A model generated the notes under the pieces. It did not search any database, was not told the origin of the DNA, and saw only the letters and a program-made list of their open reading frames with translations. Position numbers and translations under genes: made by a program. 41,152 nucleotides of DNA from Pseudooceanicola lipolyticus (GTDB taxonomy: Bacteria > Pseudomonadota > Alphaproteobacteria > Rhodobacterales > Rhodobacteraceae): positions 1 to 41,152 of the forward strand of contig NZ_PGTB01000023.1 of the NCBI RefSeq assembly GCF_002786325.1, written 5' to 3'. Positions 20,437-37,288 of the stretch are shown piece by piece (positions within the stretch are counted from its first letter, which is position 1; every line of letters starts with the position of its first letter).

Positions 20437-20450
20437 ATTGGTAAACCAAT
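20437..20450. promoter_or_regulatory. GntR (FadR-type) operator, dehydrogenase operon, distal
   Basis: ATTGGT-AA-ACCAAT, a perfect palindrome (8-bp arms if 20436 and 20451 are included). It matches the TTGGT-N2-ACCAA motif that overlaps the gntR start at 26810. Centre 132 bp from the proximal site. Confidence 0.7.
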
Positions 20451-20459
20451 TTGAGGGAG

Positions 20460-20471
20460 GAAACCGCTTTC
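20460..20471. promoter_or_regulatory. LacI-family-like operator, copy 2
   Basis: GAAACCGCTTTC differs at one base from the perfect palindrome at 20406-20417; the centres are 54 bp apart, close to five helical turns, so both would face the same side of the DNA. Confidence 0.35.
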
Positions 20472-20569
20472 CTCGCCATATTATTCGTGATTTTTCGCGC
20501 ATATCGCGATAAAATACTTGCCCGAAAGGTCGATTCCACCACATCTGAACTTACCGAAGACAACCAAAA

Positions 20570-20581
20570 TTGGTTGACCAA
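20570..20581. promoter_or_regulatory. GntR (FadR-type) operator, dehydrogenase operon, proximal
   Basis: TTGGT-TG-ACCAA, perfect 5-bp arms, ending 16 bp before the ATG at 20598 and next to the AGGAA ribosome site, a position where binding would block transcription. Confidence 0.7.
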
Positions 20582-20597
20582 ATCTAGGAAGCCGCAG

Positions 20598-21782
20598 ATG
20601 CCTGATGATGCAACCAACACCCCCGATCCCGGACACGCCGCCAAGATCGACCCGTCCGCCCCCCTGCCCGAGACAATGCGCGCCTGGGTTCTGGGCGGCC
20701 CGGAGGAATTGAGCCTGCAGGAAAAACCGCTGCCGCGCCCCGGCAAAGCCGAGGTGCTGGTGCGTGTCGACGCGGTGGCGATTTGCGCGACCGACCTGGA
20801 GATCCTGAAATACGGCACGCCTGCGCTGATCGAGGGCGGCCCACCGTTCCACAAAAACTTTACGCCCGGCCATGAATACATGGGCACGGTTGCCGCGCTT
20901 GGCCCCGGCGTCGACGAATTCGCCGTGGGCGACCGGGTGACGGTCGAGATCCATGCCGGCTGCGGCCAGTGCAAGCGCTGCCGGATGGGCATGTACACCT
21001 CGTGCCACAACTACGGAAAGAATTACGGCGACCAGAACAAGGGGCACCGTGCCAATGGCTTTACCACGGATGGTGGCTTTGCCGAATACGCGGTGAACAA
21101 CATCAACACGCTGATCCCTGTGCCGGACACCATGTCGGATGAGGAGGCAACCCTGGTCGTGACTGCCGGAACCTCGATGTATGGCCTGACCGAGCTGGGC
21201 GGGCTGGTTGCCGGCGAGAGCGTCGTGGTGATCGGCCCCGGCGCCATCGGCCTGCTGGCGGTCGCCGTGGCCAAGGCGCTTGGCGCGGCACCGGTGATCC
21301 TGGTCGGCACGCGGGAGAGCCGCAACGCCATCGGCCGCAAGCTGGGCGCGGATCACGTGATCGACGCGCGCAACGAAGATGTGGTTGCCCGCGTCAAGGA
21401 ACTGACCGGAAACGGCGCCGATTATGTGGTCGACTGCGCCGGCACCGAGACGACGGTCAACCAGTCGGTGCACATGACCAATCGCGGCGGACGAATCTGC
21501 CTGGCCGCGTTCCCGAAATCGGCGGTCAGCTTTGACCTCGGCGCCCTTGCCGTGAACAATATCTATCTCTACGGCATCCGCGGCGAAGGGAAATCCGCGA
21601 CGCATCGCGCCATGGCCTTCATGCAGGCCGGGCGGTTCGACGCCAGCCAGATCCACACGCATACCTTCCCGTTGGAAGACCTGCCCGAGGCGCTGCGCTA
21701 TGCCCGCGACCGGGTGGACGACGCCATCAAGGTGGTAGTTTCGACGCGGCCGGGCCTCGCCGGCGGCGCCAAGGCCAGATGA
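20598..21782 (+). CDS. Zinc-dependent (MDR family) alcohol/polyol dehydrogenase
   Basis: A 394-residue medium-chain dehydrogenase. Catalytic zinc ligands are C63 (ICATD) and H92-E93 (GHEYMG); the structural zinc site is complete with C122, C125, C128 and C136. The nucleotide-binding fold carries VVVIGPGAIGLLAVAVAKALG. The layout resembles sorbitol/threonine-dehydrogenase-like enzymes that oxidise a secondary alcohol. The ATG at 20598 follows AGGAA; a longer reading from 20451 would run through the two GntR sites and is rejected. It is first in an operon with the DHDPS-like and cupin genes (18 bp and 13 bp gaps). Likely repressed by the GntR protein at 26133. Confidence 0.9.
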   Translation: MPDDATNTPDPGHAAKIDPSAPLPETMRAWVLGGPEELSLQEKPLPRPGKAEVLVRVDAVAICATDLEILKYGTPALIEGGPPFHKNFTPGHEYMGTVAALGPGVDEFAVGDRVTVEIHAGCGQCKRCRMGMYTSCHNYGKNYGDQNKGHRANGFTTDGGFAEYAVNNINTLIPVPDTMSDEEATLVVTAGTSMYGLTELGGLVAGESVVVIGPGAIGLLAVAVAKALGAAPVILVGTRESRNAIGRKLGADHVIDARNEDVVARVKELTGNGADYVVDCAGTETTVNQSVHMTNRGGRICLAAFPKSAVSFDLGALAVNNIYLYGIRGEGKSATHRAMAFMQAGRFDASQIHTHTFPLEDLPEALRYARDRVDDAIKVVVSTRPGLAGGAKAR

Positions 21783-21799
21783 CATCCGGAGACGAGACA

Positions 21800-22726
21800 A
21801 TGAGCAAGGCAAGACAGGGCATTTACGCCGCTGCGATCACCCCATTTCAGGAAGACGGCAGCGTCGACCAGGCCAAACTGGTGACCTATTGCCGTCACCT
21901 GCTGACCGAGGGCGGCTGCGACGGCGTCGCGCCCACCGGCACCACCGGCGAAGGCACCTCGGTCGCGATGACCGACCGGCTGGCACTGCCCGCAGCCTTT
22001 GCCGAGGCCGGCTTCGCCCCCGATCAAGTGATCTTTGGCACGGGCGCGCCCTCGGCACAGGATTGCGTTGCGTTGACCCGCGCCGCCTGCGAGGCCGGTT
22101 TTGTCAACGTGCTGGTGCTGCCGCCCTATTATTACAAATCGCCCACGGATGACGGTGTCTTCGCCTATTACGCCAATCTGGTGGACAAGGTCGGCCGCGA
22201 CGACCTGCGTATCTACCTTTACCATTTCCCGCAGATGTCGGCCGTCCCGCTATCCACCGCGCTGGTCACCCGGCTGCGCGAGGCGTTCGGCCCGGTGATC
22301 GCCGGGCTGAAAGACAGCAGCGGCGACTTTGCCCAAAGTCGGGCCTTTGTCGAGGCAACCGGCGGCGTGGCCGCTGGTTTCGACGTCTATCCCTCGTCGG
22401 AGGCGTTCCTGTGGGATGGTCTGGACATCGGGACCGCGGGCATCATTTCAGGCTCGACCAACCTGTTCGGCGCATTGGCGCAGAAGGCCTGCCGCGCACC
22501 TGCCGGGCCGGCGCGCGACGCCGCAATGCAGGCGGTCAGCGCGGCCCGCGGGGTGGCGTCGAAATATCCCCTGATGGCCGCAATGAAAACCGCCGCCGCC
22601 TGGCGCACCGGCGATGATGGCTGGCTGCGCATGGCACCACCGCTGGTGCCGCTGTCTGCCGAGATGAAAGCCGCCTTCCGCGCCGACCTCGACGCGCTGA
22701 ACGTCACCGCTGATCCCGTTAGTTGA
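21800..22726 (+). CDS. DHDPS/NAL superfamily aldolase or dehydratase
   Basis: A 308-residue class I (Schiff-base) TIM-barrel enzyme. The catalytic lysine is K171 (GLKDSSGD), the tyrosine is Y141 (IYLYHFP), and the carboxylate-binding GTTGEG loop is at 47-52. Family members cleave or form 2-keto acids or dehydrate keto-deoxy sugar acids. It is not the biosynthetic dapA by context: it lies in a catabolic operon between a dehydrogenase and a cupin under GntR operators. The ATG at 21800 has GGAGACGAG upstream. The exact substrate is not readable; a pyruvate-releasing aldolase is a fair guess. Confidence 0.87.
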   Translation: MSKARQGIYAAAITPFQEDGSVDQAKLVTYCRHLLTEGGCDGVAPTGTTGEGTSVAMTDRLALPAAFAEAGFAPDQVIFGTGAPSAQDCVALTRAACEAGFVNVLVLPPYYYKSPTDDGVFAYYANLVDKVGRDDLRIYLYHFPQMSAVPLSTALVTRLREAFGPVIAGLKDSSGDFAQSRAFVEATGGVAAGFDVYPSSEAFLWDGLDIGTAGIISGSTNLFGALAQKACRAPAGPARDAAMQAVSAARGVASKYPLMAAMKTAAAWRTGDDGWLRMAPPLVPLSAEMKAAFRADLDALNVTADPVS

Positions 22727-22738
22727 GAGGAGATACAG

Positions 22739-23203
22739 ATGAGCACCCTCACCCACGGCCCCGACCACGTCGAAACCAACCCCGATCCGGCCGCCTTCGC
22801 CCACTGGCCCGAAGGGCTGCACGAAGAGATGCTGCGCGATGCCGACAACGGCTGCGTCGGCTCGGTTCTGGTGTCGGAAACGCCGACCATGCGGATCTGG
22901 CACCTGCGCATCGCACCGGGCAAGCGCTGCCGCTTTCACCGCCATGTAAACCGCTATTTCTGGACCGCACTGGTGCCGGGCAAGGCGCGCGGATATTTCT
23001 CGTCTGGCGAAATCAAGGATGTCGAACACTACCAGGGCGAGACCAAGCATTTCGACTATGGCGAAGGCGACCAGATGCTGCATGCGGTCGAGAATATCGG
23101 CGAAAGCGAACTGATCTTCACCACGGTCGAATTCATTGACGGCCCGAACCGTCCGCTTCCCGTTCCCGACAGCGTGCGACTGGCACCGCGCGACGGTCAT
23201 TGA
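22739..23203 (+). CDS. Cupin-domain protein
   Basis: A 154-residue single-domain cupin. The first motif is degenerate but recognisable (PGKRCRFHRHVNRYFWTALVPG, two histidines), the second lies around GEGDQMLHAVENIG. No signal peptide. It follows the aldolase by 12 bp with GAGAGGAGA upstream, and a strong terminator follows, so it closes the operon. Cupins beside sugar-acid enzymes are often isomerases or lyases; the activity here is unknown. Confidence 0.8.
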   Translation: MSTLTHGPDHVETNPDPAAFAHWPEGLHEEMLRDADNGCVGSVLVSETPTMRIWHLRIAPGKRCRFHRHVNRYFWTALVPGKARGYFSSGEIKDVEHYQGETKHFDYGEGDQMLHAVENIGESELIFTTVEFIDGPNRPLPVPDSVRLAPRDGH

Positions 23204-23210
23204 CCCCGAC

Positions 23211-23239
23211 GCCCCGGCCCACTGGCCGGGGCGCTTTTT
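23211..23239 (+). terminator. Intrinsic terminator of the dehydrogenase-aldolase-cupin operon
   Basis: GCCCCGGCC (23211-23219) pairs with GGCCGGGGC (23224-23232) around CACT, followed by GC and TTTTT (23235-23239). It ends exactly at the stop codon of the convergent gene. Confidence 0.92.
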
Positions 23240-24102
23240 CATTCTGGGCGGCTGCGCGAGATCGGCAGCAATACCGCGGCATTGTCGAGATCGCCCTCGC
23301 CCGCCGCCAGCGCCGCCTGCATCATTTGCAAATAGGTTCGGGCAAAGGGCAACCCCTGCCCCGCCGCCGCCGCGCCATCGAGGATCAGCGTGAAATCCTT
23401 GGCCGATTGCGCGATCCGCCCCTGAGGACTGAACTCGCGCCGCGCCATCTTGGCCCCCTTGCTGTCCATCACCGCGGACTGCGCCGCGGACGCCCGCGCA
23501 AGGTCAAGAAAGCGCTCGGCATCAAGCCCGAGTTTTTCGGCAAACACCAGACCTTCGGCCAGCGCCGCCCGGTTCAGGCCAAGCACCAGGTTGATCGCCA
23601 GCTTGGCGCGATTGCCGTTGCCGATCGGGCCCACATGCCGCCGCGCCATCGCCACCGCGTCCAGCACCGGCGCAATCCGATCTGCCGCGCCGGGATCGCC
23701 CGCCAGGATCAGCAGCGCAGTCCCTTCGGCCAGCGCGCGGCTGGTGCCCGAGACCGGCGCTTCGATCAGCGTGATGCCCTTGGCCGCCGCCTGCCCGGCC
23801 AAGCCCGGCATCTGATCCGGGTCGCAGGTCGACACAGAGACCAGCACCGCCCTGCAATCCGGCGCGGTTCGGATCAATTCGGCCAGCTGGCCGGTATCGA
23901 AGACGCAGGAAAACACGACATCTGATTGCCAGACGTCGCGCGGAGCACCGGCCCTGCCGCCGAGGCCGGCAAGTTCTGCACAGCGCGACGCGTCCGGATC
24001 ATGGCCGACCACCGGAAAACCCGCCGCGCATAGGCGCCGCGCCACGGCGCTGCCAATCAGGCCAAGCCCGAACAGGCCGACCGTCGGCACCGGATCAGCC
24101 AT
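23239..24102 (-). CDS. 3-hydroxyisobutyrate-dehydrogenase-like NAD(P) oxidoreductase, copy 1
   Basis: A 287-residue beta-hydroxyacid dehydrogenase. The Rossmann motif is GLFGLGLIGSAVA near the start; the substrate-binding EAPVSGTSRALAEGTALLILAG block and catalytic K167 (GNGNRAKLAINLVLG) are in place. The family oxidises beta-hydroxy acids such as 3-hydroxyisobutyrate, tartronate semialdehyde or related compounds. The ATG at 24102 overlaps the previous gene by 8 bp. It is last in a three-gene unit (Gfo, HIBADH-like 2, HIBADH-like 1). Confidence 0.88.
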   Translation of the reverse strand: MADPVPTVGLFGLGLIGSAVARRLCAAGFPVVGHDPDASRCAELAGLGGRAGAPRDVWQSDVVFSCVFDTGQLAELIRTAPDCRAVLVSVSTCDPDQMPGLAGQAAAKGITLIEAPVSGTSRALAEGTALLILAGDPGAADRIAPVLDAVAMARRHVGPIGNGNRAKLAINLVLGLNRAALAEGLVFAEKLGLDAERFLDLARASAAQSAVMDSKGAKMARREFSPQGRIAQSAKDFTLILDGAAAAGQGLPFARTYLQMMQAALAAGEGDLDNAAVLLPISRSRPE

Positions 24103-24955
24103 CACGCACCTGTCGCGCCAGTTCGTCGAACATCGGGAACAGGTGGGAAAAGTCGGTTTCGGCCGCGCCCTGGGCAAGCGCCGCGGCCAGCAGATCATGG
24201 GTCAGCCCGGTATAGGCCGCCGGCCCTTCCATCGCCGCAGCAAACCGACGGGCCAGGCCCAGATCCTTTTCCAGATTGGCAATCCGCGACCGGGCGTTCA
24301 TCGTACCGCCCAGGATGTCGCGCGGAAACCGCACCTCGGTCACGAAGCTGCGGGCATTACCGGCATTCAGCACCTCGACCACGCGATCGACCTCCAGCCC
24401 TGCTTTGCCGGCCAGCGTCAGCCCCTCACAGGTGGCCATGAACGCACTGTGCAGGATCAGGTTATGCACCAGCTTGGTTGCGTGCCCCGAACCGACCGGC
24501 CCCATGTGGAACCGCTTGTGCGAAATCCGGTCCAGCACCGGAGCAATACGCCCGATGGTCTCGGCCTCACCCCCCATCATCAGCGTGAGGTTCCCGGCAT
24601 CCGCCCCCGCTGCGCCGCCGGTCATGGCGGCGTCAACATAGGCCACGCCGGATCCGGCCAGGCGTGCGGCCAGGGCCGCGCTCTCTTCCGGGTGCGATGT
24701 GGTCAGATCGACAATCACCTGCCCGGCGCGGCAGGGCGTTTGCTCCAATATTTCGGCGATCTGCGCGGTGCCCGGCACGACGAACAGCACGATATCAGCC
24801 GCCGCGATGTCCGAGCCAACCGCCTGCGACAAGCCGGCCGCGGCCCGCTGATCCGGATTTGCATCCATTGCCGCATGCAGCAAACCGGCCCGATCCAGAC
24901 AGCGGGCGATCCCCCGCCCCATCTGGCCCAGACCGACGACGGCGCTGGTTGTCAT
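24095..24955 (-). CDS. 3-hydroxyisobutyrate-dehydrogenase-like NAD(P) oxidoreductase, copy 2
   Basis: A 286-residue member of the same family as its downstream neighbour, but clearly divergent in sequence. It has VGLGQMGRGIARCL at the N-terminus, DAAMTGGAAGADAGNLTLMMGG as substrate loop and K161 (GSGHATKLVHN) as catalytic lysine. Its ATGA start overlaps the stop of the upstream Gfo gene (24952-24955) and its end overlaps the next gene by 8 bp, so all three are translationally linked. Two such enzymes side by side suggest two oxidation steps or two stereoisomers. Confidence 0.88.
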   Translation of the reverse strand: MTTSAVVGLGQMGRGIARCLDRAGLLHAAMDANPDQRAAAGLSQAVGSDIAAADIVLFVVPGTAQIAEILEQTPCRAGQVIVDLTTSHPEESAALAARLAGSGVAYVDAAMTGGAAGADAGNLTLMMGGEAETIGRIAPVLDRISHKRFHMGPVGSGHATKLVHNLILHSAFMATCEGLTLAGKAGLEVDRVVEVLNAGNARSFVTEVRFPRDILGGTMNARSRIANLEKDLGLARRFAAAMEGPAAYTGLTHDLLAAALAQGAAETDFSHLFPMFDELARQVRDG

Positions 24956-26022
24956 TGCGCCGCCTTGATATCCGCCAGCGTGGCCATGGCGTAATTCGAC
25001 AGCGGCAGGTCCACCGGCTCGCCGATGGCGGCCGAAATATCCGCCGCCAGATAGCTTTCCATCACCATCCGCGCGTGATCGGCCGAAACCAGCGGATCAC
25101 GGTCCAACAACACGGATTCAAGGAAATGCAGCGTTTCCGGGCCCATCTGCCCGGCATACATATGGTCGACATGTTCGCCCGGCATCGTCGACATCGGAAA
25201 CTGGGTGTGCCCTTCGACGGTGTTCAGCCAATTGTCGCGCGAGGTATCGTCAAGGATCAGCGCGCCGTCGGTGCCGGTGATCTCGATCCAGGTGGCGCAA
25301 TAGTTGGGATAGCTCGGCGGCAGGTTCCAACCGCCGCCGATCACCACCAGCGCGCCGTTGTCCATGTTGACCGTGTTCCACATGCAGTCGTAGGAGCCGT
25401 TCAGCTCCTTCATGAAGCCATAGGCGCCCTGCGAGTAGACCTTCACCGGCTTGGCATCCAGCAGCCAGTAAACGAAATCGAGATCATGGGTGGATTCCAT
25501 CGCCGCCGGTGACAACTTGACCCGATTGGCGATCCGCGACCCGAGGCTGCGCGACAGGTGACGACTGACCATGACATTGACGATCTTGCCCAGCTTGCCT
25601 TCGGCGATGGCCTTCTTGGCCCAGGCAATCTTGGGGTTGAAGCGCTGGGAATAGCCGATGGTGAACTTCACCCCTTTCTCGCGGGCGATGTTGATCAGGT
25701 CATCGGCTTCGGCCAGCTCCATCGCGATCGGTTTTTCCAGCAGGACATGTTTGCCAGCCTTCAGGCAATCGCGCGCGATCGGGTAATGCGTCGGTTCCGG
25801 CGTGGTCGAGATATAGACCACCTCGATTGCCGGGTTGCTGACGATGTCCTGGTAATCCATCGTGGCGCTTGCAGGATTGGTCAAGGCCTTCATCTCGTCC
25901 AGCCGCTCGGGCCGGATTTCGCAGATATGCAACTTGTCCACCAACGCCGATTTTGCGAGCGATTCAGCCCGCATACCGCCGCACCAGCCGGTGCCGATCA
26001 CCGCGACTTCCACCTGTCTCAC
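24952..26022 (-). CDS. Gfo/Idh/MocA family oxidoreductase 1
   Basis: A 356-residue NAD(P)-dependent sugar or cyclitol dehydrogenase type. Rossmann motif GTGWCGGMRAE at 10-20, the family EKP signature at 96-98 (LLEKPIAMEL), and a C-terminal domain with ESTHDLDFVYWLL in the position of the catalytic histidine helix. The start is a GTG at 26022 with GGGGAGG seven bases before it. It leads the unit with the two HIBADH-like genes. The substrate is unknown; the fold favours a polyhydroxylated ring or sugar derivative. Confidence 0.88.
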   Translation of the reverse strand: MRQVEVAVIGTGWCGGMRAESLAKSALVDKLHICEIRPERLDEMKALTNPASATMDYQDIVSNPAIEVVYISTTPEPTHYPIARDCLKAGKHVLLEKPIAMELAEADDLINIAREKGVKFTIGYSQRFNPKIAWAKKAIAEGKLGKIVNVMVSRHLSRSLGSRIANRVKLSPAAMESTHDLDFVYWLLDAKPVKVYSQGAYGFMKELNGSYDCMWNTVNMDNGALVVIGGGWNLPPSYPNYCATWIEITGTDGALILDDTSRDNWLNTVEGHTQFPMSTMPGEHVDHMYAGQMGPETLHFLESVLLDRDPLVSADHARMVMESYLAADISAAIGEPVDLPLSNYAMATLADIKAAQ

Positions 26023-26132
26023 AAGGCGCCTCCCCTCACGTCAAGTCATTGAAATAGAAACTACGTTCCAAGCCGCACCACCGCCAACAAGCTTTTCTGA
26101 TGCCGGCCATACGAACTGTTGAAGCGGCGGGC

Positions 26133-26810
26133 TCAGCCCGCGGCCCCCATCAGGGCCAGCGTGGATTTCAAATGCGCCCGCATGGCCGCCTCCGCCACCG
26201 CGCCGTCGCGTTTTTCGATCGCGTTCAGGATCGCATCATGCTCGGCGAAGGAATGATAGTTCGGCTCCGGGCCCGGCGCCGAGGTATTCAGCCGACGCCA
26301 CACCACCACCAGCCGCACGCCGTTCAGAATGCGGTGCAACGACTGAAGCAGCGCATTACCCGAGGCCACGGCGATGATTTCGTGAAACACCCCATCCAGC
26401 GCCTCATAGGCCGACCAGGTCGTGGCGGCGCGCATATCCTGCCCAAGCCGGCGCAATTCGCGCAGATGGCGCGGCGTAGCGTGCATCGCCGCCAGGCGGG
26501 CGATTTCGGGCTCGACGGCCAGGCGCGCCTGCATAGCTTCGATCGGGCCGGTGGTCTCGGCCAGCATGGCAATGGTCTGATCGATACTTCCCGACCGGGA
26601 CGAGCGTGCGGGACGGGCCAGGAAGGTGCCCCGCCCGACATGGCGTTGCAACGTGCCCTCGGCCTCGAGGACCAGCAACGCCTTTCGCAGCTCGGCCCGC
26701 GTGACTCCCAGCGTCGCGCACAATTCGCGCTCGGGCGGCAGCCGCGCCCCTTCGGACAGGCCGGCGCCGCCGATCCAGTTGCGAAGGCGGACCAGGATCT
26801 TATCACTCAT
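26133..26810 (-). CDS. GntR family regulator, FadR/FCD subfamily
   Basis: A 225-residue regulator. Residues 1-70 are a GntR winged helix (SEGARLPPERELCATLGVTR, then RKALLVLEAEGTLQRHVGRGTFLA). The rest is an FCD ligand domain, with the metal-binding pattern visible in ALDGVFHEIIAVASGN, EHDAILNAIEKRD and MRAHLKSTL. FadR-type GntR proteins bind TNGTNNNACNA palindromes; here TTGGTTTACCAA overlaps the start codon and a variant lies 116 bp upstream, so it very likely represses itself. The same motif stands before the dehydrogenase operon (20598) and the double-TTT operon (37073). The ligand is probably a carboxylic acid from the imported substrate. Confidence 0.93.
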   Translation of the reverse strand: MSDKILVRLRNWIGGAGLSEGARLPPERELCATLGVTRAELRKALLVLEAEGTLQRHVGRGTFLARPARSSRSGSIDQTIAMLAETTGPIEAMQARLAVEPEIARLAAMHATPRHLRELRRLGQDMRAATTWSAYEALDGVFHEIIAVASGNALLQSLHRILNGVRLVVVWRRLNTSAPGPEPNYHSFAEHDAILNAIEKRDGAVAEAAMRAHLKSTLALMGAAG

Positions 26811-26821
26811 TGGTTTACCAA
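26810..26821. promoter_or_regulatory. GntR (FadR-type) operator, gntR, proximal
   Basis: TTGGT-TT-ACCAA, perfect arms. Its first base is the A of the gntR start codon (26810, minus strand), so bound protein would block transcription or initiation. Confidence 0.75.
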
Positions 26822-26925
26822 AACTCCGGCACTTGACTATTTCCGAATGGGTTTTCCTCCATTTTACTTTGATATTTTGTCAAAAGTCGAGGAATTATGC
26901 AGCCACGCAATGGGATTCCCCCACA

Positions 26926-26937
26926 ATGGTAAACCTA
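26926..26937. promoter_or_regulatory. GntR (FadR-type) operator, gntR, distal
   Basis: ATGGT-AA-ACCTA, 8 of 10 arm bases matching TTGGT-N2-ACCAA, symmetric in its deviations. Its centre is 116 bp from the proximal site; the AT-rich DNA between them (26822-26925) probably holds the gntR promoter. Confidence 0.5.
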
Positions 26938-26973
26938 TTTGACCCCCACAACCCACCGTCGCGCGCCGCCGTG

Positions 26974-27378: not shown

Positions 27379-27399
27379 CTTTGTCCTTTCCCTTCACCT

Positions 27400-27414
27400 G
27401 ACGCCTCCGGCGTC
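27400..27414. promoter_or_regulatory. Inverted repeat in the cupin / LDH2 divergent promoter
   Basis: GACGCC-TCC-GGCGTC, perfect 6-bp arms in the 64-bp gap between divergent genes, followed on the plus strand by GTTTTC. Could be an operator or a short hairpin; it does not match the GntR motif. Confidence 0.35.
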
Positions 27415-27442
27415 GTTTTCACCTCGAACACGGGAGCATCCC

Positions 27443-28572: not shown

Positions 28573-29541
28573 TTACTGGGAGGTCAGGTTTTTAACCAGT
28601 TCCTGGTAATCCTCGGCCTGCTGCTCGCGCAGTTTCTGATATTCTGCCCCGGTCATATGGTCGACGCTCTCGCCGAGGCGGCTCATCAACTTGGCGAAGG
28701 TTTCGTCCTTGCTCATTTCCTCGAAGGCTACGGTCAGCTTGTCCACCACCTCTTGCGGAGTGCCGGCAGGGGCCAGGACAAAGCGGTGCATGAAGCCGAT
28801 ATCGCCGGTGATGCCCACTTCCGAGAAGGTAGGCACACCCTCGTAGAGCGGGGTATCCCCGGCCGTGGCCAGAACGCGGATCTTGCCCGCCTCCAGCAAT
28901 TCACCGATGGCCGAGGGGAAGGCCAGCGTCACGTCGGAATCGCCCGAAAGCAGCGATTGCAAAGCGGGTCCGCCTCCCTGGTAGGGCACCAGGTTCACGA
29001 CGAAATCCAGTTTCTTCATGATCTGGGCCGCCGGGACGAAGAAAGCACCCCAGTTGCCGGAATGGCCCAACTGCAGCTGACCAGGCTCGGCCTTGGCCGC
29101 CGCCACCAGCTCTTCAAAGGTCTGATAGGGGCTGTCGGCGCGCACGATGATCGACACCGGCGCATAGTTCACGCGCGCAATCGGAACGAAATCCTTCATC
29201 GGCTCGTAAGGCACGCTTTCGACATATTGCTGAAGCATGTCGATGTAGTTGTGCGTGAAAAGCAGCGTATAGCCGTCAGCCGGCGACCGCGCCACTTCCT
29301 GCGTGCCCTTCTGTCCTCCGGCGCCGGGTGTCAGCCGAACGATCATCGCCTGCCCCAGATAGCTCGGCACGATCGAGGTGATGATGCGCGCGTTCAGGTC
29401 ATGCGACCCGCCCGCGCCCAGTGGGATCACCATCGTGACCGGCTTCTCGGGATATTCCGCCTGCGCGGCGGATGGCCCGGTCAGAACGACACCGGCCGTG
29501 GCGAGCGCGAAAAGCGCGGCTTTGGTCAATGATTTTAGCAT
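28573..29541 (-). CDS. TTT transporter substrate-binding protein 1 (TctC family)
   Basis: A 322-residue periplasmic binding protein. A Sec signal covers residues 1-28 (MLKSLTKAAL, core, PSAAQA). The mature start YPEKPVTMVIPLGAGGSHDLNAR and PADGYTLLFTH are the Bug/TctC hallmarks that hold a carboxylate through main-chain contacts. It is the last gene of the eight-gene minus-strand operon, 63 bp after tctA1. In most TTT operons tctC comes first; here the second cassette has it last. Confidence 0.9.
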   Translation of the reverse strand: MLKSLTKAALFALATAGVVLTGPSAAQAEYPEKPVTMVIPLGAGGSHDLNARIITSIVPSYLGQAMIVRLTPGAGGQKGTQEVARSPADGYTLLFTHNYIDMLQQYVESVPYEPMKDFVPIARVNYAPVSIIVRADSPYQTFEELVAAAKAEPGQLQLGHSGNWGAFFVPAAQIMKKLDFVVNLVPYQGGGPALQSLLSGDSDVTLAFPSAIGELLEAGKIRVLATAGDTPLYEGVPTFSEVGITGDIGFMHRFVLAPAGTPQEVVDKLTVAFEEMSKDETFAKLMSRLGESVDHMTGAEYQKLREQQAEDYQELVKNLTSQ

Positions 29542-29604
29542 GGTTTCTTTCTCTCTCCCTTGGTTATACGGCGGCGCGGACCAACCGCGCCGCCCAGTAT
29601 CAGT

Positions 29605-31092
29605 TCAGGCTGCCACGGGCGCCTTGTGGTACAGCCGCTTCCACAGCAGGTACCCCAGCACCGGTGTCACCAGCAGCACGGCCAGCGCCCCGGTCCTTTC
29701 CGTTAGGAAGAAACCCAGCGTGTTGCCGTTCGACATCGCCGCGGTCTGACCGAAGGCGTATTCCATCGACGGCCCCAGGATGAAGCCCATCACCATCGGC
29801 ATGACATCGAATTTCGCGGCCTTGGCGACGATCCCGAACAGGCCGAATGCCACCAGGATCAGCAGGTCGACCGGGTCCGAGCGATAGACATAGGTGCCCG
29901 CGAACGAGAACATGATTACCAGCGGGATCAGAACCGAGGTCTTGATGGTCACCAACCGGGAAAAGAACGGGATCGACAGATAGCCGATGATCAGGAACAG
30001 CAGGTTCGCGATCACCATGGCCACCAAGATGGCAAAAACGGTGGCTCCCTGCTCTTCGAACAGCTGCGGGCCGGGGCGCAGGCCCTGCGCCACGAAGGCC
30101 CCCAGCAAGATCGCCGTCACGTTGTCGCCGGGTATGCCCAGCGTCAGCAGCGGCACCATCGTCGGACCGTTCACCGCGTTGTTCGCGGCCTCGGCGGCGG
30201 CAACGCCTTCCAACTCGCCCTCGCCGAACGTCTCGGGATGTTTCGAGGCGTTCTTGGCAGCGGAATACCCCAGCATGGCGGCCACGATCTGGCCCAACCC
30301 CGGCACGATGCCCACCGCGGTGCCGATCATCGTGGACCGGCCGATGGTTCTAAAGCAGCGGCGCAGTTCGGACAGGGTCAGCCGCTCGCCCATCAGCGCG
30401 GCCAGCTTGCGGCCCTTTTCGTTGCGCAGCACCACCGAGGTAACCTCGGGCAGCGCAAAGACACCGATCAGCATCGGCAGCAGCGGAATGCCGGATTTCA
30501 GGTCAAACAGGCCAAAGGTGAACCGTTCGACCCCGCCCAGCGGATCGGTGCCGATAAAGGACAGCCACAGGCCAAGCATCATCATCATGAGGCTTTTGAG
30601 CGGGTTTGCCCCCGAGGTAGCGGCGATGATGATCAGGCTCATCAGCAGCACGGCAAACAGCTCGGGCGGGCCGAATTGCATGACCAGATAGGCAATCGGG
30701 AAGATCATCAGGATCGTGAAGATGTCGCTGGCCGTGTCGCCAAAGACCGACGCGGTCAGAGCCATGTCCAGCGCCTTTCGCGACTGTCCTTTCTGGGTCA
30801 GCTTATAGCCGTCACGCGATGTCGCAACCGAGGCCCCCGTGCCGGGCATCGAGATCAGGATCGCCGGAACGCTCCCGCCAAATATACCGCCCTTGTAGAT
30901 ACCCAGAAGGAAGGGAATGCCGACAATCGGGTCGAGGAAGAAGGACACCGGAAGCAGGATCGCCATTGCCATCAGCGTGGTAAATCCAGGCAAAGCACCT
31001 ACCAGCATCCCGGCAAACAAGCCGATGCTCATCAACGCAATTGTGTCGAAGCGCATCGCAAGGGCGAGGCCTTGGGTAAATTGTTCGATCAT
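29605..31092 (-). CDS. TTT transporter large permease 1 (TctA family)
   Basis: A 495-residue polytopic membrane protein with about 11 hydrophobic segments. The TctA signature regions are visible: VGALPGFTTLMAMAILLPV at 30-50, GSVPAILISMPGTGAS near 75-90, and TLGIPGDNVTAILLGAF in the second half, the inverted-repeat loops that bind sodium and solute. The start ATG at 31092 follows GGGAGG. It forms TTT system 1 with tctB1 just upstream (33 bp) and tctC1 just downstream. Confidence 0.92.
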   Translation of the reverse strand: MIEQFTQGLALAMRFDTIALMSIGLFAGMLVGALPGFTTLMAMAILLPVSFFLDPIVGIPFLLGIYKGGIFGGSVPAILISMPGTGASVATSRDGYKLTQKGQSRKALDMALTASVFGDTASDIFTILMIFPIAYLVMQFGPPELFAVLLMSLIIIAATSGANPLKSLMMMMLGLWLSFIGTDPLGGVERFTFGLFDLKSGIPLLPMLIGVFALPEVTSVVLRNEKGRKLAALMGERLTLSELRRCFRTIGRSTMIGTAVGIVPGLGQIVAAMLGYSAAKNASKHPETFGEGELEGVAAAEAANNAVNGPTMVPLLTLGIPGDNVTAILLGAFVAQGLRPGPQLFEEQGATVFAILVAMVIANLLFLIIGYLSIPFFSRLVTIKTSVLIPLVIMFSFAGTYVYRSDPVDLLILVAFGLFGIVAKAAKFDVMPMVMGFILGPSMEYAFGQTAAMSNGNTLGFFLTERTGALAVLLVTPVLGYLLWKRLYHKAPVAA

Positions 31093-31125
31093 TCGGACCT
31101 CCCGGTCACAGCTGGAATTGCGGCG

Positions 31126-31644
31126 TCAGAAAGGAAGCAGGCGGGCATAGGCCATCTCGATCACGTCCAGTTCGGGCAGCGAGACCACCAGCAGTTGCGT
31201 CGCGCCAAGATAGAGCAGCACCGGCGCCACCAGCGCCACCAGCCCGATCTGCACGGGCGACCGCGCGCCCATCTGCAGCGAGATCAGCGTGGTTGTGATC
31301 GCGGTCGAGATCAGGAAACCAAATGGCGCCATCGTGACTGCATAGAAAATCATGATTCCGAACAAGGTTGCGGCGCGCAGCCATTCGCCGCGGGTCAACC
31401 CTTTGCCGGCCGGCTCGGCCGCGCCAATGCGGATCACCACCAGCGCCAGGGCGCAGATCACCGCAAGCAGAAAAAGAACGATGCTGGGAAACAGGCTGGG
31501 CGTGATCGCCGACAGCGTGCGACCGAACAGAACCTTTGGCGCCGCGACGAGCGAGGACATGAAGATCAGCGACAGCGTGGAGGCGACCAGCAGTGACAGG
31601 GTGGTCAGGGTTTCCGGTGTCGGAGTAAGAAATTTCCGGCTCAT
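31126..31644 (-). CDS. TTT transporter small permease 1 (TctB family)
   Basis: A 172-residue membrane protein with four hydrophobic helices (about 17-38, 45-68, 85-118 and 130-158), as in TctB. I chose the ATG at 31644 because CAGGAGA stands 7 bases before it. An in-frame ATG at 31716 overlaps the stop of the DctP-like gene as ATGA and also has a GGAG nearby; it would add 24 hydrophilic residues, and cannot be excluded. Partner of tctA1. Confidence 0.8.
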   Translation of the reverse strand: MSRKFLTPTPETLTTLSLLVASTLSLIFMSSLVAAPKVLFGRTLSAITPSLFPSIVLFLLAVICALALVVIRIGAAEPAGKGLTRGEWLRAATLFGIMIFYAVTMAPFGFLISTAITTTLISLQMGARSPVQIGLVALVAPVLLYLGATQLLVVSLPELDVIEMAYARLLPF

Positions 31645-31712
31645 GTCAGGTCTCCTGAAGATATGTCCGGGCGAGGTTGCGGCCGGGCCGCGGTCGGAAT
31701 TGGTCAGATCGC

Positions 31713-32666
31713 TCATGACAGGGGCTCCGGTTGCGCGCCACGCGCGGTGTCGAACAGGTCCAGCAGATCGGGGGCAAGCCGCGCGCGGCTGCGGGACAGC
31801 TCAGGTGCGAGCGCGTCGCGAAACTTGTCCCGCTCTGCATCGCTCAGCGGCACCAAGACGACCCCTGCCCGCTGCAATTCGCTTGTGCAGACTTCATCCT
31901 CTTCCAGCGCCAGCGCGCGTTGAACGCGCTCAGACTCGCGAACGGCCTGGGCGACGGCCTGCCGTATCTCGGCCGGCCAGCCGGACAGCGCCGCACGGTT
32001 GAACAACACCAGCGCGATGCCCAGAAGATGCCCGGTCATGGTAACACAACGGTGGGTTTCATGCAGGCCAAAGCGGAAGATGTTGGTAAGCGGGTTCTCC
32101 TGGGCGTCGATCTCGCCCCGCGCCACGGCGCCGGCCAAATCTTTGACGTCGATCACCCGCGGCACAAACCCGAGGGCGCGGAACAAACGCTGGTGATCCT
32201 CATTGGCAAGCGTGCGCAGGCTCAGCCCTGCGCAATCCACCGGCCGCCGCACCGGCCGCGCTGCGGTCGAGATGTGCCGTAGCCCGTTGTCCCAGACGCC
32301 CAGAACGCTGAACCCCGTACGTTCGGCGACATCTGCCCCCAAGCGCGCGCCAAGCGCCCCGTCGAGCAGCGCAAAGGCGCCGGCGCGGTCGGGCACCGCG
32401 AAATGCTGATCGAACAGCGACAGCGACGGCACCCGCCCGGCGAGGTAGCTGGAGGAAAAATAGCAGGCATCCAGCTTGCCCCGTTCGGTCAGGTCCAGCA
32501 GATCGGCGGCCTTGTGACCCTGTTCGGTCACATTGCGCTGCAGCTCCACCTGGACCTCGCCGCCGGTCAGATCGTCCAGCGCGGCGGCAAAGGCCTCCAT
32601 ACCGCGGGTATGCACCGATTCCGGCCCCTGGTAGCCGCCAAACCGGATGCGAAACGCGGCCTTCAT
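31713..32666 (-). CDS. DctP-family (TRAP-type) solute-binding protein without signal peptide
   Basis: A 317-residue protein that clearly belongs to the TRAP DctP family: VLGVWDNGLRHIST, the ligand arginine R151 in LSLRTLANE, GEIDAQENPLTNIF and the CVTMTGHLL helix. Yet it starts directly with the first strand of the mature fold (MKAAFRIRFGG) and has no signal peptide. The start is fixed by an ATGA overlap with the upstream Gfo gene. No DctQM permease is in this operon; it sits between a Gfo oxidoreductase and the second TTT cassette. It may work in the cytoplasm as a ligand carrier or sensor, or have lost its signal. The ligand arginine is kept, so it should still bind a carboxylate. Confidence 0.85.
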   Translation of the reverse strand: MKAAFRIRFGGYQGPESVHTRGMEAFAAALDDLTGGEVQVELQRNVTEQGHKAADLLDLTERGKLDACYFSSSYLAGRVPSLSLFDQHFAVPDRAGAFALLDGALGARLGADVAERTGFSVLGVWDNGLRHISTAARPVRRPVDCAGLSLRTLANEDHQRLFRALGFVPRVIDVKDLAGAVARGEIDAQENPLTNIFRFGLHETHRCVTMTGHLLGIALVLFNRAALSGWPAEIRQAVAQAVRESERVQRALALEEDEVCTSELQRAGVVLVPLSDAERDKFRDALAPELSRSRARLAPDLLDLFDTARGAQPEPLS

Positions 32667-33793
32667 CCGGCAAGTTCCCGCATCAGTTCCTCGGGATCGG
32701 CCGGCAGCGCCACCGGCGCACCGCGTTTGGCCGACAGGTCCATCGCCATCGTCATCAGCAGATTGCGATGCCCGTCAGCCGCGGTGGCGTGGGGGGTGCG
32801 CTGGCCGGCATAGACGCGCTGGAACCAGGCATTGGTCTCTTCTCGCATCGGCCCCCACAGCTGGCCGATATGCAGATCACCCGGCGGATAGCTGGTCAGG
32901 AAATCCACGTGCCGGGGCGGTGCTACAAAACCGTCCGGCACATAGCCGCCACCCTGCGGCACCTCGCTGGCCAGCACCACGTCGCGATGGGTGTCCTCGA
33001 TGTCGATCACACCCTTGTCGCCGACGATTCCGATCTCGATGCCATAGACGGCACCGGGCCAGACTTCGGGCAGCGCCCAGCTGATGTTCATCGACCAGAT
33101 GGTGCCATCGGTCATCGTGAACACGCCAAAGGTCGAATCCTTGGTGCCGTGCTTGCTCAGCACCTTGTCGCAGGACTGGGCGAAGACCGACGCGGGGGTC
33201 TTGCCCTCCATCAGCCACATCGACATGTCCAGGCTGTGCGTTCCCGACACCACCATCGGTGTCAGCGTCGCGCGCTCCTGGGTGCGGCGCGTGGTGGCGA
33301 TCGGCACCATGCGGTTCATGAAGGCGCGGGTCACGACGGAATGCACATCGCCGATCTGCCCGGTGATCAGCTTTTCCTTGATCGCCAGAAACCGGCGGCG
33401 GAACCGCTGGGTATAACCAACCACCGCGTCGATCTCCGCCGCCTCGATCGCGGCCAGGATCTGCGCGGATTGCCGCGCGTCGGTCGCCAGCGGCTTCTCG
33501 ATGAACAGGTCATGGCCCTTCTCGATGGCCAGCATCGTCGGGTCGAAATGAAAGTTTTCGTCCGTTGCGATGATCGTGGCGGTCACCTCGGGGCGGTTCA
33601 ACAGCTCCCGGTAGTCATTGGTGAAGAAATCGGCCGAGATGTCATCGGCCAGCTTTCGCCCGATATCCGACTTCACATCGCACAGCCCGATCCAGCCCAC
33701 CCCGGGAAAGGCGCGCGCCAGTTCGGCGCGGATTCTGCCGATGGTGCCGCATCCAACGACGGCAAGTCCGATTTCCTTACGTTTCGATGTCAT
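32663..33793 (-). CDS. Gfo/Idh/MocA family oxidoreductase 2
   Basis: A 376-residue NAD(P)-dependent oxidoreductase. Rossmann motif VVGCGTIGRIRAE near residues 12-24, EKP signature at 99-101 (FIEKPLATDA), GYTQRFRRRF in the hinge and VSGTHSLDMSMWLM at the catalytic histidine helix. It differs clearly from Gfo 1 and Gfo 3. It starts 28 bp after tctA2 and overlaps the DctP-like gene by ATGA, so it is embedded between the two transporter cassettes. It probably oxidises the imported compound or its first product. Confidence 0.88.
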   Translation of the reverse strand: MTSKRKEIGLAVVGCGTIGRIRAELARAFPGVGWIGLCDVKSDIGRKLADDISADFFTNDYRELLNRPEVTATIIATDENFHFDPTMLAIEKGHDLFIEKPLATDARQSAQILAAIEAAEIDAVVGYTQRFRRRFLAIKEKLITGQIGDVHSVVTRAFMNRMVPIATTRRTQERATLTPMVVSGTHSLDMSMWLMEGKTPASVFAQSCDKVLSKHGTKDSTFGVFTMTDGTIWSMNISWALPEVWPGAVYGIEIGIVGDKGVIDIEDTHRDVVLASEVPQGGGYVPDGFVAPPRHVDFLTSYPPGDLHIGQLWGPMREETNAWFQRVYAGQRTPHATAADGHRNLLMTMAMDLSAKRGAPVALPADPEELMRELAG

Positions 33794-33821
33794 GTTGTCT
33801 TTCCTTTTTGCCGCAGGCTGT

Positions 33822-35312
33822 TCAAGCGGCTGCAGTCTGTTGTCTTGATGCGCGCAGGCCGCGCAGGATGCCTTCGATCACCACGAACAGGACCCCTGCC
33901 ATCAGCACGGTTCCAATCCACTGCGAGAGGATGAAGCCGACGCTCTTGTCTTCGAACACAAGCAGGGCGCGGCGCAGGTTTTCATCCGCGAGCGGGGCGA
34001 GGATGACGCCCAGAACAATCGGTGCCACGGGGAAGTGGAACCGCGTCAGCCCCCAGCCGGCGATGCCCGCCGCGAACATCACCCAGACGTCGAACATCGA
34101 CAGCTTTACCGAATAGGCGCCGACCACGCAGACCGGGATGATCAGCGGCATCAGGATGCCACGCGGCAGGCTGAACAGCTTGATGCAGGGTTTGATCAGG
34201 GCAAAGGCGGCCAGGTACATCAGCACGTTGGCGATGATCAGCGCGCCGTAGATGAAGTAGATCAGCCCCGGATGGTCGACCTCGATCGTGGGGCCCACGG
34301 TGACGTTCTTTAATGTCAGCGCAGCCAGCAGGGCGGCCGCCGCGGCGTTGCCGGGGATACCGAGCGCCAGGGTCGGCAACATCGATCCGCCGATATTGGC
34401 GTTGTTCGAGGTCTCGGCGCAGACCAGCGCCTGGTAACTGCCCTTGCCCCATTGCGCCGCCTCCTCGCGCGAGGCGCGGCGGCGACCGATGTCATAGGCC
34501 AGGAACGAGGCGACATTGGCACCCGCTCCCGGGATCGCACCGATCACCGCGCCCATCACGCCGGAACGCAGCGCCGCAGGGGAATAGCGCGCCAGCCGCC
34601 GCAGCGGCGGAAAGATGCGGCCAACCTCGCCCGGGATGGTCGGCGCGCTGTCCGAGGGCAGAGTCCGCAGGATCTCGGCCAGACCGAACAGGCCGATCAG
34701 CACGGCAACATAGGAAATCCCGTCATACAGCATCGGGCTGCCGAAGGTGAAACGCGGCACCGCGTGGATCTCGTCCAGCCCGACCAGCGCGATGAGAATA
34801 CCCAACCAGCCTGCGATCCAGCCCTTGAGCGGCATTGCCCCCGCCGCCATCGACCCGGAAACCATGATCCCGATCACGGCAAGCCAGAACATCTCCCACG
34901 AACGGAAATTCAGCGCGAAACTCAGGATCAGCGGAATGAACAGGATCAGCAGCACGATGCCCACGGTGCCGCCGACAAACGAGGCGGCGATCGACATGCC
35001 AAGCGCCTGCCCGCCTTCGCCCCGCTGAGCCAGGGTGTGGCCCTCGATCATCGTCGGCACCGCGTCGGGCGTGCCGGGGATGTTGATCAGGATGGCAGAA
35101 ATCGCCCCGCCGAAAACCGACCCGGTATAAACCCCCAGCATGAAGCAGATCGACACCTGCTGTGACATGCCCGCCGACAACCCGATGAGAAGCCCCATCG
35201 CCATCGTGGTCGACAAGCCCGGAAGCGCGCCCCAGATGATGCCCAGACAGACCCCCGCGAGGGTCATCGCCAGCAGCACCGGCGACATGAGCTGAAAAAA
35301 TGCGTCCAACAT
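33822..35312 (-). CDS. TTT transporter large permease 2 (TctA family)
   Basis: A 496-residue polytopic membrane protein. Signature regions: IIWGALPGLSTTMAMGLLIG near 24-43, GGAISAILINIPGTPDAVP near 68-86, and TLALGIPGNAAAAALLAALT in the second half. It is distinct from tctA1 and not a recent duplicate by eye. It is separated from tctB2 by 3 bp, so the pair is tightly coupled, and from the Gfo 2 gene by 28 bp. Part of TTT system 2 with tctB2 and tctC2. Confidence 0.92.
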   Translation of the reverse strand: MLDAFFQLMSPVLLAMTLAGVCLGIIWGALPGLSTTMAMGLLIGLSAGMSQQVSICFMLGVYTGSVFGGAISAILINIPGTPDAVPTMIEGHTLAQRGEGGQALGMSIAASFVGGTVGIVLLILFIPLILSFALNFRSWEMFWLAVIGIMVSGSMAAGAMPLKGWIAGWLGILIALVGLDEIHAVPRFTFGSPMLYDGISYVAVLIGLFGLAEILRTLPSDSAPTIPGEVGRIFPPLRRLARYSPAALRSGVMGAVIGAIPGAGANVASFLAYDIGRRRASREEAAQWGKGSYQALVCAETSNNANIGGSMLPTLALGIPGNAAAAALLAALTLKNVTVGPTIEVDHPGLIYFIYGALIIANVLMYLAAFALIKPCIKLFSLPRGILMPLIIPVCVVGAYSVKLSMFDVWVMFAAGIAGWGLTRFHFPVAPIVLGVILAPLADENLRRALLVFEDKSVGFILSQWIGTVLMAGVLFVVIEGILRGLRASRQQTAAA

Positions 35313-35315
35313 CGA

Positions 35316-35879
35316 TTAGAAGCCTCCCGGCAGGGGAATGTGGAACAGAACCTGGAAGGCGAGTGACAGCGCCAGTGTCCAGCCGACCGAAACCAGCGAG
35401 GTGATCCAGAGCGGCCCGCGCCAGCTGGTATGAATAAGCGCCGTCAATGCGATGATGGTCACCGGCTCGAAGGCGGACAGCGTCAGCGGCACGCTGCCAA
35501 TGTCGAAGTACAACTGGAAGGCCAGCAGTTGCAGCGCCAGAAGATAGGTGGCGATGGTCAACGCCAGTGCCAGCGTGCGACGGTCCTCGGCACGGTTTCC
35601 GAAGTCACTTTCGCCGGTTTCCCCGGCACGGTGACGCCGCAGTGCCGACAGGCCCAGAAGTCCCGCCATCACCGCCAGCGAGGCGGCCGCGAGGAACGGC
35701 AGCAGGCCCGGTGCGGTCAGCACCGCACCCGGCACCGGAAGCAGCAGAGACGCCACCATGACCAGGCCGGAGAGCGCCAAAAGCACGCCCGCCGCGATGA
35801 GATCGAGAAGCGGCGCTGCATATCCTGCATTGGCGTCCTCGCCCTCGAACGAAACGGTCTGCGGCTGAGACTGCGACAT
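35316..35879 (-). CDS. TTT transporter small permease 2 (TctB family)
   Basis: A 187-residue membrane protein with an acidic, hydrophilic N-terminus of about 22 residues and four hydrophobic helices (about 23-46, 54-78, 101-145, 152-180). The ATG at 35879 follows AAGGAGC; a start at 35909 has no ribosome site. It is followed after 3 bp by tctA2 and lies 78 bp after tctC2. Confidence 0.82.
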   Translation of the reverse strand: MSQSQPQTVSFEGEDANAGYAAPLLDLIAAGVLLALSGLVMVASLLLPVPGAVLTAPGLLPFLAAASLAVMAGLLGLSALRRHRAGETGESDFGNRAEDRRTLALALTIATYLLALQLLAFQLYFDIGSVPLTLSAFEPVTIIALTALIHTSWRGPLWITSLVSVGWTLALSLAFQVLFHIPLPGGF

Positions 35880-35957
35880 AAAAACAGCTCCTTGCTGGAG
35901 GTGCGGCATGTGCCGGGCCAGGCCAGTTGCGAGGCCCGGAACATGGTTGCGAACAGA

Positions 35958-37073
35958 TCAGGAAATCGGCGGCGGCGTGTAATCCGCGGGCGGCCACCAG
36001 CTTTCGAAATCTTCTGGCGCCGGCAGGCCCAACTCGGCCGCGGTTTTGACCTCGGCTCCGATGGCTTCCTTGTTCTTGTTGAAGATATCGACGGTGACCG
36101 TCTCCATCAGCGCGCCCTGACGGTCAGCAGCTTCACCGACCAGCACGTCCAACTCGAAGAACTGCCGTTCCATCATCTCGCGGAACCCCTCCGAGGAAGC
36201 GGCGGCGCGGAAGGCATCGGCCAGTTCCTGGAGAATTTCAGGCGGCAGGTTGCGCTGAACCATGAAGTTGTAGGTCGCACCCACCGGCAGCAGCTTCTGA
36301 GCTTCGGGGATGATGCCCCCGATCGACGGCAGCACGGTTCCGTCCGGCAGGGTGACATCCGAGGCACGGGCGTGGCACAGGTTGCGCAGCTCGCCCGTCC
36401 GGATCAGATCTATATGTTCGTGCAGGCCACCGCCGGCGATATCCACCTCGCCCTGAAGCCCGGCCAGGGTGGCCGGCTGCCCCCCTTTGTAAGGCACATA
36501 TTTCAGCTCGATCCCGGCAATATTGGCCAGGATCAGCGACACTTCGTGCCAGACGCCGCCAGTGCCCGAGGTCGAGATGGTGACCGAACCGGGATTGGCG
36601 CGCGCGGCGTCGATCACGTCCTGCATCGACTGGAACGGAGAATCCTTGCGCACCGACCAGCTGGCCGGGGCATTGGCCGCCTTCATCGGCAGCCAGTCCC
36701 GCCACGGCACGAATTCCGCATGCCCCAGCACCCGGACGAACCGGTTGTAATTGGCCGCGCCCAGCAGGGTATAGCCATCGGGGCGCGCGGCGGCGACGAA
36801 TTGCGTCGCCACGCCGCCGACCGCACCCGGTTTGTTGATCACATTGATCGTCCAGCCCTTGGCGCGCGACATCTCTTCGGCCAGCTTGCGCATGATGGCA
36901 TCGGTGCCGCCCCCCGCGGCATACATCACCACCAGGGAGATCGGGCGCCGCGGCCAGGTCTGCGCCCACGCCGGCGCCGGGATGGTGATACTCAACGCGC
37001 CCATGCCCGCCATTGCCGCACCCCCTGCCAGGAATGCGCGGCGGCCTGCCGCTGTCTTTTTGTCCTTCGTCAT
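35958..37073 (-). CDS. TTT transporter substrate-binding protein 2 (TctC family), Tat-type signal
   Basis: A 371-residue binding protein. The N-terminus carries a twin-arginine signal (GRRAFLAGG, then a mild hydrophobic core ending PAWAQ), unlike the Sec signal of tctC1. The mature part starts TWPRRPISLVVMYAAGGGTDA and has RPDGYTLLGAANY, the Bug/TctC hallmarks. The tail is longer than usual and ends with Pro- and Trp-rich residues. The ATG at 37073 follows GGGAGGA. It is first in the eight-gene operon, downstream of two GntR operators (37159-37170, 37277-37288). Confidence 0.88.
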   Translation of the reverse strand: MTKDKKTAAGRRAFLAGGAAMAGMGALSITIPAPAWAQTWPRRPISLVVMYAAGGGTDAIMRKLAEEMSRAKGWTINVINKPGAVGGVATQFVAAARPDGYTLLGAANYNRFVRVLGHAEFVPWRDWLPMKAANAPASWSVRKDSPFQSMQDVIDAARANPGSVTISTSGTGGVWHEVSLILANIAGIELKYVPYKGGQPATLAGLQGEVDIAGGGLHEHIDLIRTGELRNLCHARASDVTLPDGTVLPSIGGIIPEAQKLLPVGATYNFMVQRNLPPEILQELADAFRAAASSEGFREMMERQFFELDVLVGEAADRQGALMETVTVDIFNKNKEAIGAEVKTAAELGLPAPEDFESWWPPADYTPPPIS

Positions 37074-37158
37074 GTTGTCCTCCCATGATGATCGGGCGCT
37101 TGAACCGCCCACCGCAACTATGCGGAATATCTTCCCCTAAGCAGGCCTCCGGATCTTA

Positions 37159-37170
37159 TTGGTCTACCAT
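37159..37170. promoter_or_regulatory. GntR (FadR-type) operator, double-TTT operon, proximal
   Basis: TTGGT-CT-ACCAT, 9 of 10 arm bases, 86 bp upstream of the tctC2 start. Its centre is 118 bp from the distal site. Confidence 0.65.
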
Positions 37171-37276
37171 TTTCCAGATTCCTCCCATCTCATTCTTACC
37201 CCAGCTCAGGGTTATCGCATAATTATTTGTCTTTTTCGGCGGCGTTTTTGCATGATTTGGTCCGAGCGGGCTCAGA

Positions 37277-37288
37277 TTGGTTTACCAA
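37277..37288. promoter_or_regulatory. GntR (FadR-type) operator, double-TTT operon, distal
   Basis: TTGGT-TT-ACCAA, perfect, extended to ATTGGT/ACCAAT (37276-37289). It overlaps the last codons and stop of the upstream AEC transporter gene. The AT-rich DNA between the two sites probably holds the operon promoter. Confidence 0.7.

Follow-up and report, generated by a model that had tools for sequence, protein, structure and literature searches.

LldR of E. coli, a FadR-type regulator, has two separated operators around a promoter, and a comparable arrangement of paired palindromes is described here for three loci of Pseudooceanicola lipolyticus, one of which encodes a GntR/FCD (FadR-type) regulator, gntR. 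The analysis concerns a 41,152-nt stretch of contig NZ_PGTB01000023.1 (assembly GCF_002786325.1; genome, 5,229,069 bp), referred to as the window. According to a comparative study, the spacing between GT and AC in the binding site is 2 nt in several FadR-type groups (UxuR, GntR, and PrpR among them) and 3 nt in most (PMC4494728). LldR falls into the 3-nt class (PMC4494728), has other targets than the regulator studied here, and has been named as a possible case of DNA looping (PMC7804116). Also close in design are UxuR, GntR, HpxS, HypR, MdcY, and PrpR, which share with our regulator the combination of GntR and FCD domains, the 2-nt spacing, and double promoter sites (PMC4494728), but their target genes differ, and our protein reaches no named family cut-off. 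The FadR-type repressors DgoR and DhdR also have other target genes; in DgoR, two repeats lie close together and overlap one promoter, whereas the sites described here are 111-146 bp apart. Like our system, Atu1419 of Agrobacterium fabrum has two palindromes per promoter region and represses its own gene together with catabolic genes (PMC7797058); unlike ours, it belongs to the VanR group, recognizes ATGTATACAT at distances of 190 and 109 bp, and is distant in sequence.

The kind of system is not new in itself; what is new is this regulon, which we regard as a solid prediction. A preliminary description of the window had called the regulon uncharacterized, and no description of the cluster or the regulon was found among the titles and abstracts listed from an open-licence library. 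With a probability of about 0.85, the GntR/FCD protein represses its own gene and a single catabolic cluster through two operators before each transcription unit.

Results

The preliminary description had reported six copies of a TTGGT-N2-ACCAA palindrome, two each at a zinc-binding dehydrogenase operon, at gntR, and at a transporter operon, four of them with perfect arms and with spacings within the pairs of 132, 116, and 118 bp, respectively. A scan of the window bore out the positions, the perfect arms, and the spacings (Table 1), with R2 as the weakest of the six sites. The start given for the first site, 20437, lies one base to the left of the TTGGT core, although the extended 14-mer ATTGGTAAACCAAT does begin there; the assignment of the sites to the TNGTNNNACNA class did not hold, as the spacer here is N2, not N3. 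The perfect core TTGGTNNACCAA occurs four times in the whole genome, and all four copies lie in the window, which makes up 0.79% of the genome, so that the genome scan for equally good sites outside the three loci returned no further perfect core. The perfect 14-mer ATTGGTNNACCAAT occurs twice, both times in the window. At ≤1 mismatch, this 14-mer is found at 10 places in the genome, 5 of them in the window; four of the other five lie inside open reading frames (ORFs) of 463-622 codons and the fifth at the start of a mechanically called ORF without a Pfam match, and we claim no further regulon member in this genome.

When the promoter stretches, picked once the sites had been seen, were subjected to dinucleotide shuffling, two sites as good arose in 0/2000 shuffles for the dehydrogenase, 1/2000 for gntR, and 0/2000 for the transporter operon. 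The base preceding the core lay outside the search pattern and is A in 88% of 40 sites from 20 pairs (1.46 bits, symmetrized). Eleven off-target sites from other parts of the genome include 6 with A before the core and 2 with T at the opposite end. Because this outer A/T is conserved in the aligned sites, we write the predicted operator as ATTGGTNNACCAAT.

The window proteins and the motif were then mapped on 26 loci, some of them overlapping; GntR orthologs had been collected by homology and other stretches by place, some of them for motif hits (L094, L097, L099, and others). A pair was defined as two sites with ≤2 mismatches each and ≤3 in sum, 90-165 bp apart. All 12 distinct loci with a dehydrogenase homolog of at least 79% identity, the window included, have a pair before this gene (spacing, 117-146 bp), and 6 of 8 loci, again with the window, have one before the TctC2 operon (spacing, 111-127 bp); across orthologous promoters, pairs thus recur before the same operons. 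Six loci (L020, L021, L095, L100, L101, and L102) have divergent gntR and dehydrogenase genes with one common pair between them, and L095, from genome G089, carries an extra pair before DctP. In L018 and L019, gntR follows TctC1 directly and no site at ≤2 mismatches is found near its start, as expected if gntR rides on the operon promoter there.

Each of the six divergent loci (6/6) also has a TTGGT or CTGGT half-site that starts 20-21 bp, two helical turns, upstream of the dehydrogenase-proximal operator; the window shows no such half-site at the corresponding position. It is a possible third binding box, predicted from loci that are not independent because they are related. On another contig of G211, a perfect pair 131 bp apart (L093, 9702-9844) precedes the gene of a 270-aa ABM-domain protein, which may also belong to the regulon in G211. 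The paired motif is found as well in Tritonibacter (L104, 8763-8877), at the start of divergent dctQ/dctP genes with a GH2 enzyme gene and a different GntR/FCD gene nearby, and in G123 (L105, 9899-10020), where a dehydrogenase and an aldehyde dehydrogenase gene flank it. Since these last two pairs stand at other genes, other FCD regulators probably also make use of such paired sites.

As a control, all 1,024 half-sites were ranked by the pairs they form. TTGGT ranked 1/1024 with 13 pairs in 12 loci, compared with 4 for the next (16 loci, 318,189 bases), and among central gaps of 0-8 it gave pairs from gap 2 only in these 16 loci. This set took in the window and the motif-fetched L094, L097, and L099, which introduces selection bias; when the window, the motif-fetched loci, and one near twin were left out, TTGGT still ranked 1/1024, with 6 pairs against ≤3 (12 loci, 156,129 bases). 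Relaxed pairs (TGGTNNACC twice) occur at six distinct places in the genome of P. lipolyticus, three of which are those of the window, and the control pattern gave three; taken alone, this count is only moderate support. Perfect pairs 104-134 bp apart were found five times in 395 family genomes, distributed over four genomes (G000, G089, G123, and G211, the last with two), compared with none for the reversed control. Three of these four genomes carry the gntR ortholog; the G123 pair stands at other genes, and the pair before the ABM-domain protein accounts for one of those in G211.

Pairs also co-occur with gntR. Dehydrogenase homologs at E ≤ 1e-150 number 21 in 20 of the 395 genomes. Seven of these genomes hold a gntR ortholog of at least 55% identity; in every one of them, a pair lies no more than 600 bp upstream of the best homolog. 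The remaining 14 homologs (72-78% identity) have no pair within that distance; one is a second copy in G089, and the 13 genomes with the others yield just three GntR matches at E ≤ 1e-30, with 39-44% identity. In a search of a plasmid collection, identity was 41-49% among the matches listed (15 of 1499 records), with one further record in the 60-80% band.

The position of the proximal operator at gntR also recurs. By inspection, the operator core of the window, L020, L095, L096, L100, and L101 has as its last base the A with which the gntR start codon opens, and in L021 and L102 an in-frame ATG can be read at the same place, 13 codons before the first aligned residue. Because operator and start codon share this A in the window (region 26808-26821), any Shine-Dalgarno sequence would lie at least 11 nt upstream of gntR. 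A strict sigma-70 scan at gntR found two promoter-like sites between the operators, one per strand, with 0.1 expected.

The regulator has an N-terminal GntR winged helix (PF00392; E, 2.1e-15) and a C-terminal FCD domain (PF07729; E, 5.6e-26), and fold comparison agrees. FCD domains have seven helices in the FadR subfamily compared to six in VanR; our structure model (pLDDT, 88.6; pTM, 0.65) has candidate FCD helices at H76-85, H89-110, H113-128, H132-149, H153-171, H186-199, and H203-224. In 20 sequences, D139, H143, and H191 are invariant and H213 is nearly so, a set that fits the Asp/Asn-His-His-His metal-site pattern of many FCD domains. By analogy with N137, H141, H192, and H214 of Atu1419, these residues may bind a metal. 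Folds close to that of the ligand domain, several of them tied, include those of DgoR, DhdR, PmiR, and PdhR, which are regulators of small carboxylic acids. Among named NCBIfam families, none was reached at its cut-off (NanR, 105.7 of 260 bits; LldR, 92.5 of 311; UxuR, 80.9 of 442).

Three units carry operator pairs: the dehydrogenase, aldolase-like, and 154-aa protein genes; gntR with the Gfo/Idh and two 3-hydroxyisobutyrate-dehydrogenase-like (HIBADH-like) genes; and the eight-gene transporter run, which encodes two tripartite tricarboxylate transporter (TTT) systems (Table 1). For TctC2, the ATG at 37073 was taken as the start, and HIBADH-like protein 1 probably starts inside its overlap with HIBADH-like protein 2. 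The gene of the 154-aa protein lies near the dehydrogenase gene in most relatives mapped, and the gene order of the transporter operon is identical in L018, L019, L096, and L099. The cupin and Ldh_2 genes (26974-28489), which lie within the cluster, have no operator pair of their own.

Table 1. Predicted operators and genes of the cluster, in window coordinates
Feature	Position	Strand	Remarks
Operator A1, distal, dehydrogenase operon, TTGGTAAACCAA	20438..20449		Perfect; extended 14-mer 20437-20450
Operator A2, proximal, dehydrogenase operon, TTGGTTGACCAA	20570..20581		Perfect; start codon 16 bp on
Zinc-binding dehydrogenase (ADH_N, ADH_zinc_N)	20598..21782	+	Pfam
DHDPS/KDG-aldolase-family protein	21779..22726	+	Pfam; every NCBIfam match under cut-off
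Conserved 154-aa protein, third gene of dehydrogenase operon	22739..23203	+	Without Pfam match
3-Hydroxyisobutyrate-dehydrogenase-like protein 1, gntR operon	23239..24198	-	Pfam
3-Hydroxyisobutyrate-dehydrogenase-like protein 2, gntR operon	24095..24955	-	Pfam
Gfo/Idh/MocA oxidoreductase, gntR operon	24952..26022	-	Pfam
GntR/FCD (FadR-type) regulator, predicted binder of the six sites	26133..26810	-	Pfam GntR and FCD; model
Operator R1, proximal, gntR, TTGGTTTACCAA	26810..26821		Perfect; includes A of gntR ATG
Operator R2, distal, gntR, ATGGTAAACCTA	26926..26937		2 mismatches
Transporter operon TctC2-TctB2-TctA2-Gfo/Idh-DctP-TctB1-TctA1-TctC1 (eight genes, order right to left)	28573..37073	-	Pfam
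Operator T1, proximal, transporter operon, TTGGTCTACCAT	37159..37170		1 mismatch
Operator T2, distal, transporter operon, TTGGTTTACCAA	37277..37288		Perfect; overlaps stop codon of AEC-type gene
AEC-type gene	37282-38187	-	Stop codon overlapped by operator T2

The nutrient handled by the cluster is probably sugar-acid-like. None of 10 proteins compared with NCBIfam scored above a cut-off; the Protein Data Bank (PDB) relatives of DctP, TctC2, the dehydrogenase, and the aldolase-like protein indicate no single substrate, and the Gfo/Idh protein has no PDB relative at 1e-20. The excerpt of a paper on a TTT transporter of a Vibrio alginate locus gives no operator information (PMC13390454).

Within the TTT operon, DctP, a solute-binding protein of the tripartite ATP-independent periplasmic (TRAP) type (PF03480; E, 4.3e-52; 31713-32666, minus strand), is encoded directly before TctB1-TctA1, an order conserved in nine loci (L016-L020, L037, L095, L096, and L099). 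The scan of 20 proteins between 19337 and 39742 found no DctQ or DctM. A 2018 review, in the text available, goes no further than suggesting that TTT membrane parts might work with binding proteins from other systems (PMC5812351). A DctP/DctM pair lies at 12652-15751, apart from the transporter operon, in a separate left-hand cluster (12652-19039) that also encodes a beta-keto acid cleavage enzyme, a flavin reductase, and a luciferase-like monooxygenase; the window scan found no perfect operator copy in this cluster.

Discussion

The preliminary description had joined the three loci into one GntR regulon, a prediction that is well supported by the uniqueness of the sites in the genome, the conserved pairs, and their co-occurrence with gntR. 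In the mechanism we propose, a dimer of the regulator would bind ATTGGTNNACCAAT, and each unit would have two operators 116-132 bp apart with the promoter most likely between them or over the distal one. Without inducer, both operators of a unit would be occupied; the proximal operator, located just before the dehydrogenase start and on the gntR start codon, would block the early transcribed region, and the distal operator would add occlusion or cooperativity. A small hydroxy-carboxylate imported by the transporters, or its product, may then free the repressor.

Several findings weigh against this reading. At ≤2 mismatches, the window holds 11 sites with 8.0 expected, a number reached by 18 of 100 shuffles, and at ≤1 mismatch the genome holds 52 sites compared to 96 for a reversed control pattern. 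Counts at ≤1 or ≤2 mismatches show no excess and were rejected as evidence, and the case therefore rests on the perfect copies, the pairing, the position, and the conservation of the sites. The TctC2 operons of L021 and L102 (2/8) are without a pair; those of L094, L096, and L099 have theirs approximately 0.6-0.8 kb before TctC2, with a 215-aa ORF in the gap of L096. Strict sigma-70 scans at the dehydrogenase and transporter promoters found no candidate, so for two of the three units a promoter between the sites is what we infer. The dehydrogenases with pairs are 79-100% identical to that of the window, and those without pairs 72-78%, which makes relatedness a partial confounder. That the sites reflect chance or AT-rich promoter composition, a view with which the lack of excess at ≤2 mismatches would agree, is contradicted by the shuffles, the half-site ranking, and the conservation, and its likelihood is negligible. 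The genome encodes 31 FCD proteins, so that another of them could bind the sites as well; in that case, a paralog would be the regulator and the local gntR one of its targets. In L104, a pair with the same core motif stands at unrelated genes, with a different GntR (31% identity) nearby, and points in this direction. The pairs, however, go together with orthologs of this gntR, and of 41 GntR relatives that are more distant (<55% identity), 12 carry a site at ≤1 mismatch within the roughly 400 bp that precede their own gene, which leaves regulation by a paralog improbable.

The function of the pairing can be read in more than one way. We give an even chance to the two sites acting independently, such that two operators provide tighter occlusion or serve two promoters without contact between the bound proteins. 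The single pair between divergent gntR and dehydrogenase genes in six loci argues for this, and both independent and cooperative double sites are described in FadR-type divergons (PMC4494728). In the window, however, the pairs precede single operons at spacings in the same range, and their upstream neighbors (LysR, cupin, and AEC) run in the same direction as the operon each precedes; none of the three pairs therefore lies in a divergon, and two divergent promoters do not account for the pairing there. Alternatively, one tetramer may bridge each pair and repress through a DNA loop of approximately 110-146 bp around the promoter; looping between paired sites had been suggested in the preliminary description. 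Helical phasing of two sites is expected for short loops. No phasing is seen among 21 spacings (111-146 bp), which fits independent sites and gives looping no support; the best scanned period, 12.55 bp, is not meaningful and was discarded. These spacings include the pair of the ABM-domain gene in L093. They leave out L017, which is nearly a twin of L016; the gntR pairs spaced 155-157 bp apart in L016, L017, and L037, whose second site falls within the gene; second pairings that overlap, in L021, L094, and L099; and the pairs that L104 and L105 have at other genes.

Looping nevertheless finds some backing in the maintenance of pairing over several operons and genera at 111-146 bp, and in Atu1419, an FCD repressor that is a tetramer and for which its authors proposed looping between palindromes separated by 190 bp and a degenerate site at a distance of 109 bp (PMC7797058). 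This sole published FCD precedent that we found was proposed from structure and is only distantly related, and helical phasing is not reported in the excerpt available (PMC7797058); LldR at lacUV5 provided one negative but weak test (PMC7804116). We consider looping doubtful. Less likely still is an obligate two-site FCD repressor whose pair brackets every target promoter in the cluster, with a flexible tetramer closing loops of 111-146 bp at any helical phase; if that were true, autorepression would affect transcription and translation initiation together, given that the gntR operator is fused to the start codon.

Altogether, the results outline a coherent, testable regulon, predicted for a catabolic cluster with two TTT transporters, a TRAP-type binding protein, and several dehydrogenases. 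Because the regulon is defined, one reporter could serve growth screens, and the pairs across operons and genera offer a natural spacing series for testing DNA looping by FadR-type repressors.

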